From Desulfobacula sp. (GTDB taxonomy: Bacteria; Desulfobacterota; Desulfobacteria; Desulfobacterales; Desulfobacteraceae), in assembly GCF_014237455.1 (NCBI RefSeq), contig NZ_JABZFL010000053.1:1-54686 (forward strand): a stretch of 54,686 nucleotides of DNA. The letters run 5' to 3'. The notes beneath the pieces were generated by a model. That model was given only the letters and a program-made list of their open reading frames with translations. It did no database searches and was not told the DNA's origin. A program made the position numbers and the translations under genes. Below, piece by piece: positions 34,615 through 53,705 of this stretch (its first letter is position 1; each line of letters begins with the position of its first letter).

Positions 34615-35885
34615 TTATATCTCCTCAAAAGTTAACGTATCGGGTTCAAAAGAGAGGGTTGAAAAATAATTTTCCATGGTTTCAGCACTTCTGATCAGCT
34701 CAACACTTGAATCCTCTCTCAACAGCAACTCCTTTGGTCTTAGGTGGCCGTTATAATTAAATCCCATGGCGTGCCCGTGGGCCCCGGTGTCGTGGATAAC
34801 CAGAATATCACCTTCAACCGTGGCAGGCAGTTCTCTTTGAACGGCAAATTTGTCTATATTTTCGCATAATGCACCCATCACATCGGCTTTTTTCAAAAGG
34901 AGAGAATCCTCTTTTCCGTGAATATGGATGTGGTGGTAGGCGTCATACATGCCCGGTCGCATAAGTGCTGACATGGATGCATCCACACCAACATATTTTC
35001 TATAGGTATTTTTATGGTTGATTACAGATGTGACCAGCACCCCATGAGGGCCGGTGATATATCGACCGCTTTCCATGTATAGTTTGGGTGCCCATCCATT
35101 GATTCCTTTAAATTTTTTGAAAAGCCGGGCAGTTTCACTGGCCATGGAATCAAGGTCAAACGGTTTCGCATCCGGGGCGTAAGGAATGCCCAGTCCGCCG
35201 CCAATATTGATAAATTCAAAGGTAATATCAAGTTTTTCACAGATTCGTTCAACTATATCCAGCAGCATTCGGGTGGTTTCAACCATATATTCGTAATTCA
35301 GTTCATTGGATGCCAGCATGGTGTGAATACCGAATCTTTTAACCCCAAGTTTTATGGACTGGCTGTAAGCATCGATGATTTGATCATGGCTGACACCATA
35401 TTTTGATTCCACGGGATTTCCAATGATTTTATTGCCTTTTCGCAGGGGGCCGGGGTTGTACCTGAAACAGATAAGGTCAGGAATGTCCGGTACTTTTGAA
35501 ATCAAGGAAATGTCATCCAGATTCAGGATACACCCCCCCCATTTTCCAGTGCGGTTTCAAACTGGGAGATGCTGGTGTTATTTGAAGTAAACATGATATC
35601 TTCCTTGAAACTGCCGATCTGCCTGGACAAATGGATCTCCGGTGTGGAACTGCAGTCAAATCCAAATCCCATTTCCTGCATGATTTTCATGATGGAGGGG
35701 TTTGGCAGTGCTTTGACTGCAAAAAATTCTTTGAATCCCTCAATGTTTTCAAAGGCAGTGTTCAGTTTGCGGCATGTCTCTTTTATCCCTTTTTCATCGT
35801 AAATATGGAAAGGTGTTCCAAATGTATCCACAATTTGCGGTAGAAGGCGAGAAAGTCTTTTTTTGTATGAATTTGACATCGGCAC
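34615..35885 (-). CDS. lysA: Diaminopimelate decarboxylase, frameshifted at a G8 tract
   Basis: Last step of lysine synthesis: meso-DAP to lysine + CO2, PLP-dependent. The N-terminal part (35885-35523) holds the PLP lysine in FFAVKALPNPSI (K58) and ends prematurely in NGGGVS. The C-terminal part (from 35505) carries the GGGLGIPY phosphate loop, YMESGRYITG, and DTGAHGHAMGFNYNGHLRP. The two frames differ by one base at eight consecutive G (35533-35540, minus strand). One more G, or two fewer, restores NGG(G)CILNLDDISLISKVPD without a stop. It may be a sequencing or assembly error, a slippage-based phase switch, or a real mutation. Start GTG 35885 or ATG 35879; no strong Shine-Dalgarno. Confidence 0.85.
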
Positions 35886-38122: not shown

Positions 38123-38201
38123 TCATTTTTTCATACTCTAAAAGTTGTATTTTTGAATATATTGAGAATGGAAATGAAAAATAAAATTGGATGGTGATTT
38201 G

Positions 38202-38609
38202 ATGAGAGTATTATTTTGGTATTGTGATAAATTTGCCTGGAAACCAACAATAAAGACGCTTGAGAATGTTCAAAACTCAGAACCAGAAGAGCATGAAAAA
38301 GCTGTGGTTGCCTTCATACATGTTGAACCTAAAGATGTTGAAAATGGCAGTTCTTCTGAAACCAAACTGGTAAAAAATGCTAAATGGCTTGCCCGCAAAT
38401 GGGATGTAAAAAAAATCCTGCTCCATTCATTTACACATTTGGCTGAAGAAAAAGCCGATCCAGATAAGGCAAAACATCTTTTGGACCAAGTTCAGGATAG
38501 ACTTGTAAAGGCAGAATATGAAGCATCTCAAACGGCCTATGGGTATTTTAATGATTTGGTTATAGAAGCTAAAGGGCATCCACTTGCCAGAATTTTTAAG
38601 GAATTTTGA
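38202..38609 (+). CDS. Freestanding threonyl-tRNA synthetase editing-domain protein
   Basis: 135 residues resembling the archaeal ThrRS N-terminal editing domain (tRNA-Thr_ED, a D-aminoacyl-tRNA deacylase-like fold) as a stand-alone protein: start MRVLFWYCDKFAWKP, AVVAFIHVEPKDVENG, KKILLHSFTHLAEEKADPDK, and the C-terminal YGYFNDLVIEAKGHPLARIF, matching the archaeal GYYKAFKISCKGHPLA pattern. In archaea this domain removes serine from Ser-tRNA(Thr). Bacterial ThrRS has its own unrelated N2 editing domain, so this would be an extra trans-editing factor, or a re-purposed fold. ATG at 38202 with GGTG upstream; an upstream TTG adds five residues. Confidence 0.8.
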   Translation: MRVLFWYCDKFAWKPTIKTLENVQNSEPEEHEKAVVAFIHVEPKDVENGSSSETKLVKNAKWLARKWDVKKILLHSFTHLAEEKADPDKAKHLLDQVQDRLVKAEYEASQTAYGYFNDLVIEAKGHPLARIFKEF

Positions 38610-41299: not shown

Positions 41300-42235
41300 A
41301 TGGCTGAAAAATCGACTTATAAAGAATTAGAAAAAAGGATTCAGGAATTAGAGCAATCAGAATCTGATCGCAGGAAGGCGGAGAATATACTGAAATATAG
41401 TCAGTTTCAATTAGAAGCTATTTTTAATAATCTTGATTCATTAATTTACATTACCGATATGGACTCATATGAGATCCTTTTCATGAACGATCACATGAAA
41501 AAACTTTATGGAAAGGATCTAATCGGTAAATTATGCTGGAAATCACTTCACAAAAACCAAATTGGTCCCTGTAAATTCTGCTCAAATGATAAATTAGTAA
41601 ATGCAGATGGAAATCCGACGGGACCCTATGTATGGGAAATTCACAATCAAATATTAGACAAATGGTATGAGCTGCACGATCAAGCAATTCCCTGGACAGG
41701 CGGACGACTTGTACGTATGGAAATTGCAATAGATATTACTCACCGAAAAAAAATGGAAGAAAAGCTAAAAAATTGGAATGTCGATCTTGAAGAAAAAATA
41801 AAAGAAAGGACTTCCTCTCTTGAAGATGTAAATACAGCTTTACGGGTGCTGTTGAATAAAAGAGAAGAGGATAAAAATCAAATCGGTGAAAATATATATT
41901 CTAATTTTAAGTCACTTATACAGCCCCTCCTAAATCAATTGAGAACCCATCTTACAAAGAATGTTCAAGAAGACATGCTTGATATCCTGGAATCCGGTAT
42001 TAAGGAGATGACCACCCCTTTTTCAAAAAAATTGTCAGGTCCAATGATGGGTTTGACACCTACAGAAATTCAGGTAGCCCACCTTGTTAAAGATGGGAAA
42101 ACAAACAAAGAAATATCACAACTTCTCAATAAATCCATACGGGCAGTATCCTCACATCGAAATAATATCAGACAAAAATTTGAATTGAAAAATAAAAAAA
42201 TAAATTTGAGGACTTATTTGTCATCCCTTAATTAA
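41300..42235 (+). CDS. PAS-LuxR-type transcriptional regulator
   Basis: 311 residues. N-terminal coiled coil (YKELEKRIQELEQSESDRRK), PAS domain (about 45-150: AIFNNLDSLIYITDMDSYEI, then CWKSLHKNQIGPCKFC with three cysteines in the loop), a second coiled coil, and a C-terminal LuxR HTH (LTPTEIQVAHLVKDGKTNKE, ISQLLNKSIRAVSSHRNNIR). It lacks a receiver domain, so it probably senses a ligand or redox state directly through the PAS domain. The Cys-rich PAS loop is common in Desulfobacterales PAS proteins. Strong AAGGGAA upstream of the ATG. Target unknown; the secreted rhodanese-like gene is downstream. Confidence 0.87.
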   Translation: MAEKSTYKELEKRIQELEQSESDRRKAENILKYSQFQLEAIFNNLDSLIYITDMDSYEILFMNDHMKKLYGKDLIGKLCWKSLHKNQIGPCKFCSNDKLVNADGNPTGPYVWEIHNQILDKWYELHDQAIPWTGGRLVRMEIAIDITHRKKMEEKLKNWNVDLEEKIKERTSSLEDVNTALRVLLNKREEDKNQIGENIYSNFKSLIQPLLNQLRTHLTKNVQEDMLDILESGIKEMTTPFSKKLSGPMMGLTPTEIQVAHLVKDGKTNKEISQLLNKSIRAVSSHRNNIRQKFELKNKKINLRTYLSSLN

Positions 42236-42333: not shown

Positions 42334-42477
42334 CTGAAAAGCTACTCCATAACACCCACTATCCTTGTAATAGATGATGAACCATCTGTCTTGAAGCTGA
42401 TGAAACACACTCTGTCAAAAAAAGGATATACGATTGATACAGCTGTGAATGGTGAAGAAGATATCCGAAAATTGTAA
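42334..42477 (+). pseudogene. Truncated response-regulator receiver domain
   Basis: The frame reads TILVIDDEPSVLKLMKHTLS followed by KKGYTIDTAVNGEEDIRKL and a stop: the first 45 residues of a CheY-like domain. The phospho-acceptor aspartate and the rest are missing, and there is no ATG/GTG start with Shine-Dalgarno. A remnant. Confidence 0.75.
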
Positions 42478-42529: not shown

Positions 42530-42587
42530 TTTGAGGAATGGAAATTATTCAAAAAACAAAAACATTAAAAGAAAAAGGAGGTTAACG

Positions 42588-43364
42588 ATGCATAAAAAAA
42601 TATTAATTCTTATTCTTTCATTATTTTTTATAATTGGATCATCTACATTCGGATTTGCGGCGAAGGTGCCTGCTCCTGAAAAAGGGGGGGACGGATTCAA
42701 GGCAGTAAGCATGAAAGAAGCAAAAAAACTTCATGAAGACGGCGTGACAGTGGTTGCATGTCACAGCCATACGACTGATTTCATGAAAGGGCATCCTTCC
42801 GGTACAATACACATAACGTGCATGGTCCCAAAGGATCACAAACGCACTGATATGCCGTTAAACAAAGTTGACTTTGATATTGCACAGCTTCCAAAAGATA
42901 AAAGTACTCCCATTATGACCTATTGTGCGTCAGGCACATGATGGAAATCCTATCACGCCGCCAGGTTGGCGGTTGAGAATGGTTACACAAATGTATATTG
43001 GATGAGAGACGGTATCAAGACATGGAAAAAAGCAGGGTACTCCACTGAAGGCAGGTTAAAACTTCTTAATGATTTAATCGATGTAAATAAAATTGATTTT
43101 GGCGCATTACTTATAACTGAAAAAGATGCAGGAAAGTTAAAAAATTGCACTTTTGTTGATTTCCGTGATAAATCAAAATATGAAAAAAATCATATTAAAG
43201 GTGCTAACTATGTTGATTACAGCGATATGTTTTCTAAACCTATGATGGAGGAATTAAACAAAAGCAATAGTCTGATTGTCATCCATGATGTCCAAGCAAT
43301 TGCAGGTGCCATCGCTGTCACCTTGAAGCTTATGGACTATCCAGATGTATATATTCTCAAATAA
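42588..43364 (+). CDS. Secreted double-rhodanese selenoprotein (in-frame TGA read as Sec)
   Basis: Read through TGA at 42939-42941, the frame gives a 258-residue protein. Residues 1-24 are a Sec signal peptide (HKKILILILSLFFIIGSSTF), so it acts outside the cytoplasm. Domain 1 (about 35-150) is rhodanese-like with active loop YCASGT-U118-WKSYHAARLAVENGY; C113 is the rhodanese cysteine and Sec118 replaces the second Cys of the CxxxxC-WKS group. Domain 2 (about 160-258: FVDFRDKSKYEKNHIKGANY) is a second rhodanese fold whose active Cys is replaced by Asp (IHDVQAIAG), so probably structural. Reading resumes in perfect homology directly after TGA, and a SECIS-type hairpin follows. Start ATG 42588 with AGGAGG 7 nt upstream. 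The alternative, a nonsense pseudogene, is less likely. Confidence 0.85.
42939..42973 (+). promoter_or_regulatory. Bacterial SECIS element with Sec UGA
   Basis: UGA at 42939-42941, then 15 nt, then a 6-bp stem (42957-42962 / 42968-42973; CCGCC/GGCGG plus a closing G-U) with a 5-nt loop AGGUU. The loop starts 21 nt after the UGA, within the 16-37 nt range reported for bacterial SECIS elements, and has G in the expected first positions. Confidence 0.75.
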
Positions 43365-53545: not shown

Positions 53546-53561
53546 GTATTAAAGAAAAAAT

Positions 53562-53650
53562 ATTTGTGCGGGAGCATGATTGTCATGCTGAGAGGGGTTT
53601 GCCCGACCGTTCATAACCTGATCCGGATAATGCCGGCGGAGGGAACGAAT
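53562..53650 (+). promoter_or_regulatory. TPP riboswitch (THI element)
   Basis: P1 pairs ATTTGT (53562-53567) with ACGAAT (53645-53650). Inside are the conserved CTGAGA (53588-53593) and ACCTGAT-CCGGATAATGCCGGCG-GAGGGAA segments of the TPP aptamer, with the GCATG/CATGC stem preceding CTGAGA. An intrinsic terminator follows, so TPP binding most likely switches transcription off. Confidence 0.93.
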
Positions 53651-53658
53651 CTATTATT

Positions 53659-53705
53659 AACCATTCTCTGATGATCAGATGTTTTTTTCAGAGGATGGTT
53701 TTTTT
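53659..53705 (+). terminator. Riboswitch expression-platform terminator
   Basis: 13-bp stem with one U-G pair (53659-53671 / 53688-53700), 16-nt loop, followed by TTTTTATTTT. It lies between the TPP aptamer and the Shine-Dalgarno GGAGAG. Confidence 0.88.

Follow-up and report, generated by a model that had tools for sequence, protein, structure and literature searches.

The contig of Desulfobacula sp. analyzed here (NZ_JABZFL010000053.1), whose full 54,686 nucleotides are referred to as the window, contains two adjacent open reading frames, 42588-42941 and 42966-43364, the first of which ends in TGA. This locus raises the question of whether the TGA terminates a gene or is decoded as selenocysteine (Sec) within one longer rhodanese-like protein, and what such a protein might do. 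The sequence-only reading had proposed a secreted selenoprotein, and its claims were followed up here by searches of relatives, profile matches, and analysis of the RNA hairpin.

Organization of the gene

The two frames very probably constitute one working selenoprotein gene with tandem rhodanese domains (42588-43364, forward strand), in which UGA is decoded as Sec. The gene starts with an ATG at 42588, ends with a TAA at 43362-43364, and encodes 258 residues counting Sec118. An AGGAGG ribosome-binding site, read directly, lies 6 nt 5′ of the ATG at 42576-42581 (+). The coordinates of the gene claimed to be split by TGA were confirmed, and the start of the second frame at 42966 turned out to be merely an internal TTG. 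An annotation that reads the TGA as a stop halves the gene and conceals the protein.

The protein scored 75.8 bits with the Rhodanese profile (PF00581; cut-off, 22.2), which matched it in two stretches. The active-site loop lies in the first rhodanese domain (residues 43-149, 42714-43034, +). This loop opens with Cys113 (42924-42926, +), a Cys in every one of the 23 close members, and its sixth residue is the in-frame TGA of codon 118 (42939-42941, +), giving C-A-S-G-T-U in the context YCASGT-TGA-WKSYHAA. The motif C58-H-S-H61 (42759-42770, +) in the same domain was also invariant in all 23 close members. In the sister group f30, however, all six sequences have Ala in place of C58, so that C58 would be dispensable for any chemistry common to both groups. 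The second rhodanese-like domain covers approximately residues 178-258 (43119-43361, +), as indicated by the second PF00581 stretch and a match to NF045521 at residues 178-255. By inspection, it contained no Cys at the presumed loop position, and this domain may have a structural role.

TGA is conserved at codon 118 in close relatives

In a collection that holds a single genome for each species, a scan found 27 loci, of which 22 spanned codon 118, four were fragments ending short of it, and one was distant (L054). All 22 spanning loci had TGA at codon 118 and no further internal stop; they carried names of Desulfobacterales, Desulfobacteraceae, or other deltaproteobacteria, and the cultured carriers include Desulfocicer vacuolatum DSM 3385 and Desulfobacter latus AcRS2. 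Relatives of the gene are thus present in numerous sulfate reducers from marine settings. A further search, at E 1e-30, covered 389 genomes belonging to the class, a set that overlaps the collection as well as the 395- and 291-genome sets used below. This search gave 30 matches in 29 genomes. A single internal stop, TGA, was observed in 28 of the 30, the window's own gene included, and the other two were C-terminal fragments lying past the TGA.

Compared with the window sequence, dN/dS ranged from 0.04 to 0.21 in the part preceding the TGA (computable in 17 of 22 comparisons, the signal peptide excluded and the rest saturated) and from 0.04 to 0.15 after it (14 of 22 computable, the rest saturated). 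The low values 3′ of the TGA therefore indicated that the part past it is translated in the same frame. A stop other than TGA in relatives, or decay elsewhere in the gene, had been named as evidence against the selenoprotein; neither TAA nor TAG occurred at codon 118 in any relative, and no decay was observed, as judged from the lack of other internal stops and from purifying selection. Homologues had been expected to carry Cys in some cases and TGA in others, and this was borne out, with TGA in close relatives and Cys in distant ones. Within the close family, no Cys ortholog was found in the overlapping sets of 389, 395, and 291 genomes, so that the Cys/Sec exchange rests on relatives that are approximately 25-46% identical over the aligned parts.

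A conserved hairpin follows the TGA

A candidate SECIS hairpin is located at 42957-42973 (+), 21 nt past the UGA, exactly where it had been predicted with the loop AGGUU. Five pairs, all G/C, join 42958-42962 with 42968-42972, and an extra G-U pair is formed at 42957/42973. According to the rules in a 2026 review (PMC13188914), a bacterial SECIS element should have 3-9 nt in its loop and 4-16 bp in its stem, lie 16-37 nt away from the UGA, carry a G within the first two positions of the loop, and fold with a minimum free energy of at most −7.5 kcal/mol; the review also gives a loop pattern, N1-G-G/U-N-N2. The hairpin of the window showed a loop of 5 nt, a stem of 5 bp, G at the second loop place, and a spacing of 21 nt, and the ends of AGGUU can pair as in that pattern. 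All 33 aligned sequences had G as the second loop base, with core energies of −9.2 to −13.5 kcal/mol. The claimed fit to bacterial SECIS rules was thus obtained for every published rule.

Stem pairing was retained in 160 of 160 cells over 32 distinct rows. Three of the five stem pairs were invariant, and two showed compensated changes from C-G to U-A, one in L042, L062, and L084, and the other in L046. As many compensated pairs arose in only 3 of 500 shuffles, and none of the 500 matched the covariation score; a measure counting further pair types was not above the shuffles (500/500). Synonymous codon entropy was 0.41 bits for the seven hairpin codons versus 1.41 bits for 60 other conserved degenerate codons. 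None of 100,000 permutations gave hairpin codons of such low entropy, a frequency that is not a strict probability since the rows are related. The lowest-entropy 12-codon windows of the gene started at codons 118-120. The single-sequence fold of the 60-nt hairpin region in the window was unremarkable (z −1.49; 13 of 200 shuffles folded at least as well), and that of the sister L077 was stronger (z −3.39).

The host genome encodes the selenocysteine machinery

The presence of selA, selB, selC, and selD had been set as a check on the selenoprotein claim, and all four were detected in the host genome over the cut-offs: selA with 596.9, selB with 346.1, tRNA-Sec with 76.5, and selD with 370.6 bits. 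In 14 control genomes, the cut-offs were passed by tRNA-Sec in five, SelB in two, SelA in one, and SelD in two; the tRNA-Sec cut-off is therefore not very strict. Among the carriers, selB was over the cut-off in 25 of 30 genomes, and the other five were 77-89% complete. The tRNA-Sec was over the cut-off in 23 of 31 genomes (the 30 carriers plus G773), and two carriers, G323 and G328, had neither selB nor tRNA-Sec over the cut-off. The host selD is itself a selenoprotein gene; it has a single TGA, within KASG-U-AAKIDPG, and a hairpin after it (L026, position 1528).

A sister subfamily with TGA and distant relatives with Cys

A sister subfamily, consisting of the six f30 sequences and L084 (L075-L079, L082, and L084), was 40-45% identical to the main group and had TGA at the same place and the same hairpin. 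The starts of the sister genes were preceded by an AAAGGA-type site. The genome of L084 lies outside the class. When both TGA subfamilies were searched in 291 genomes of the order, 24 of 25 matches contained TGA, and the 25th was a fragment. Down to the 1e-14 limit of this search, these genomes yielded no matches beyond the TGA group, and hence no closely related Cys ortholog.

The sequence-only reading had placed the TGA at the second Cys of the rhodanese loop. Outside the TGA family, the 25 distinct domain rows agreed with this placement, 21 of them having Cys at both positions 113 and 118. Two rows (L085 and L086) had Ser/Gly, both chalcogens being lost, and two (L126 and L127) had Cys/Ser. 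The co-presence and twofold co-loss of Cys113 and Cys118 in these relatives suggests that the two residues form a working pair.

A full-length Cys-bearing relative, L116, was found in a Sulfurimonas MAG. Like the window protein, this 306-aa protein has a signal-like N-terminus and two Rhodanese stretches; unlike it, L116 has Cys in place of Sec in the loop YCMGVNCWKSY, is only approximately 25% identical, and comes from a genome in which tRNA-Sec had no match over the cut-off. The distant L054, from the same Sulfurimonas genome, also has Cys at the 118 position; in it, a rhodanese is joined to a longer protein. L054/L117 and L118 represent a Campylobacterota-type fusion in which a signal-bearing CxxxxC rhodanese domain is followed by a longer C-terminal part. 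This part reads like a chemotaxis receptor (frames of 740 and 744 residues).

The main group is probably exported

The window protein is probably exported. Residues 1-25 (42588-42662, +) form a probable signal peptide by hydropathy and inspection, with KK, a hydrophobic core, and FAA-K. The 12-residue hydropathy maximum at the N-terminus was 2.48-3.68 in 23 of 23 close members. In contrast, it was 0.17-1.29 in the seven members of the sister subfamily, which showed no hydrophobic stretch. The suggestion of a secreted protein was thus supported, by hydropathy, for the close members. The sister subfamily is without a signal sequence, so that the wider family need not share one location.

Genomic neighborhood and distribution

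A PAS-LuxR regulator gene (41300-42235) adjoins the selenoprotein gene and had been pointed out as its neighbor. It is indeed next door but was not conserved beside the relatives: when predicted neighbors within flanks of a few bases to as much as 5 kb were clustered, no family occurred in more than two of 23 loci. Genomic context thus gives no function, and we gave no weight to the PAS-LuxR link, which was dropped. Between these two genes, 42352-42474 (+) holds a 41-codon remnant of a response-regulator receiver, which scored 26.3 bits, just below the Pfam cut-off.

The distribution was patchy, as 4 of 24 same-genus genomes, among those listed, carried the gene; together with the lack of fixed neighbors, this may reflect lateral movement. 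Three stretches of viral contigs matched a pattern, and none of them encoded a relative.

Other features were observed in the window. A gene for a PLP-dependent decarboxylase of the Orn/DAP/Arg type (34615-35885, −) is split into two frames just past a run of eight G, by an assembly indel, gene decay, or a variable tract. A stand-alone archaea-type editing domain of threonyl-tRNA synthetase (PF08915, 131.6 bits) is encoded at 38187-38609 (+) in this bacterial genome, and a TPP riboswitch (71.7 bits) is located at 53558-53661 (+).

Comparison with known rhodanese families

At an E-value limit of 1, the window protein matched fourteen NCBIfam models, none of which reached its own cut-off. All 23 members matched the same leading families, the cut-offs being compared for the first member. 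The model that best matched the first rhodanese domain was TsoB (NF045694), with residues 36-155 aligned to model positions 42-158 at 50.1 bits, and the UxxxxU motif of TsoB has the same spacing as CxxxxU in the window protein. However, the TsoB cut-off of 805 was missed, the model has 572 positions and by name a DsbD-like part, and the loop of the window protein opens with Cys. The LYCAU rhodanese-related (seleno)protein (NF041203, CxU) is likewise a rhodanese selenoprotein with Cys before Sec, but scored 38.5 against a cut-off of 115 bits and has Sec two places past the Cys rather than five; its model of 126 positions corresponds to one domain. The PQQ-dependent catabolism-associated CXXCW motif protein (TIGR03865) shares a rhodanese-type domain, matched at 104-154, but scored 48.3 against 128.05 bits and is by name a Cys family with no Sec stated. 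Among solved structures, a profile search gave seven distinct sequences, the best being 6mxv (55.8 bits), and no tight relative.

Of the 119 prokaryotic selenoprotein families and subfamilies tabulated in 2026, five are rhodanese forms (1-5), with the motifs UxxS, UxxG, CxU, UxxG, and UxxxxU (PMC13188914). Forms 1, 2, and 4 have Sec in a rhodanese fold as here, but their listed motif opens with Sec. CxxxxU is not among these five forms, and the string was absent from the available review text (PMC13188914). A "Sulfurtransferase homologous to a rhodanese-like protein" is listed in 24 organisms (PMC5029168); in the available part of that source it appears by name only, with no sequence or motif, and may overlap with the window family. 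A rhodanese-like selenoprotein is also mentioned, in the available part of PMC8318568, for a Desulfobacula-related sediment genome. Given such unspecific entries, the family may already be counted under a general name. In the article text that was searched, no paper was found naming a CxxxxU rhodanese or its exported form. The form had been thought possibly undescribed. Within that scope, this held for the subfamily but not for the kind, since rhodanese selenoproteins with other motifs, one of them UxxxxU, are already listed. What appears to be new is a CxxxxU tandem-rhodanese selenoprotein subfamily, whose main group is apparently exported.

Discussion

Decoding of codon 118 as Sec is strongly supported by the shared TGA, the hairpin, and the host machinery. 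We are fairly confident that the window encodes a selenoprotein which is probably exported and would work as an oxidoreductase through Cys113 and Sec118. We infer that the protein is probably an extracytoplasmic sulfane-sulfur or disulfide oxidoreductase. We propose that SelB and tRNA-Sec would decode UGA 118 with the hairpin at 42957-42973 as SECIS, producing a protein with two rhodanese domains, the first of which would be active. Cys113, which by its loop position we take to be the usual rhodanese nucleophile, would accept a sulfane sulfur from polysulfide, thiosulfate, or a thiol persulfide, or would attack a disulfide. Sec118, the last residue of the six-residue loop, would attack next, thereby releasing sulfide or a thiol. 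A transient Cys113-Sec118 bond would be left, to be reopened by an outside reductant, such that the protein would act not as a plain sulfurtransferase but as a persulfide/disulfide oxidoreductase. TsoB, a selenoprotein described as rhodanese/DsbD fusion-like, has UxxxxU, and this motif hints at a thiol-disulfide-type electron supply.

Alternatively, the protein could be a plain sulfurtransferase in which Sec118 merely tunes Cys113, by lowering its pKa or shielding it from over-oxidation, with no bond between the two residues. We regard this as rather unlikely. Ordinary rhodaneses have Arg or another residue at loop position six, which is consistent with such a role, as are L126 and L127, where Cys113 is kept with Ser at 118. 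Nevertheless, most distant rows (21 of 25) have Cys/Cys and two have lost both together, and Sec is a costly residue found mostly in redox centers, according to the available text of PMC13188914.

An exported protein might also bind reduced selenium or pass it on, with Cys113 or Sec118 carrying a perselenide, and thereby serve in selenite handling or in the supply of selenium. Rhodanese is reportedly able to carry selenium (Ogasawara 2001), and the host genome makes selenoproteins. However, no selenium-metabolism gene was common to the neighborhoods of the relatives. Moreover, Cys-only relatives exist, one of them in a genome (G773) with no tRNA-Sec over the cut-off, which argues for a thiol or sulfur role of the fold. 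We therefore consider a role in selenium chemistry improbable.

Reading of the UGA as another residue, by near-cognate read-through or a reassigned code, is very improbable and was rejected: UGA read-through is known in general, but this analysis gave no support for it here, and the sel genes, a suitably spaced SECIS-like hairpin, and the Cys of relatives at this position speak against it. A pseudogene or sequencing error, with a real stop and a single-domain product ending at residue 117, was likewise rejected as practically refuted, as only the ordinary hairpin energy of the window would favor it, against a TGA shared by all 22 spanning loci of the collection and by 28 of the 30 matches from whole genomes, purifying selection after the TGA, frozen synonymous codons, and compensated pairs.

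For the preferred Cys113-Sec118 oxidoreductase, we tentatively suggest a wider role, as one possibility that we hold with less than even confidence. In this unnamed Desulfobacterota branch of Sec-rhodaneses, which would comprise an exported form and a cytoplasmic sister, the Cys113-Sec118 pair may convert the sulfurtransferase fold to a selenium-dependent persulfide/polysulfide or disulfide reductase that takes part in the sulfur traffic of sulfate reducers beyond their inner membrane. If this is right, sulfate reducers would spend costly Sec outside the cytoplasm, at the site of polysulfide and disulfide chemistry. The occurrence of CxxxxC, CxxxxU, and UxxxxU in one fold would then provide a natural series for testing what Sec adds to rhodanese chemistry, and the cultured carriers make the family experimentally accessible.
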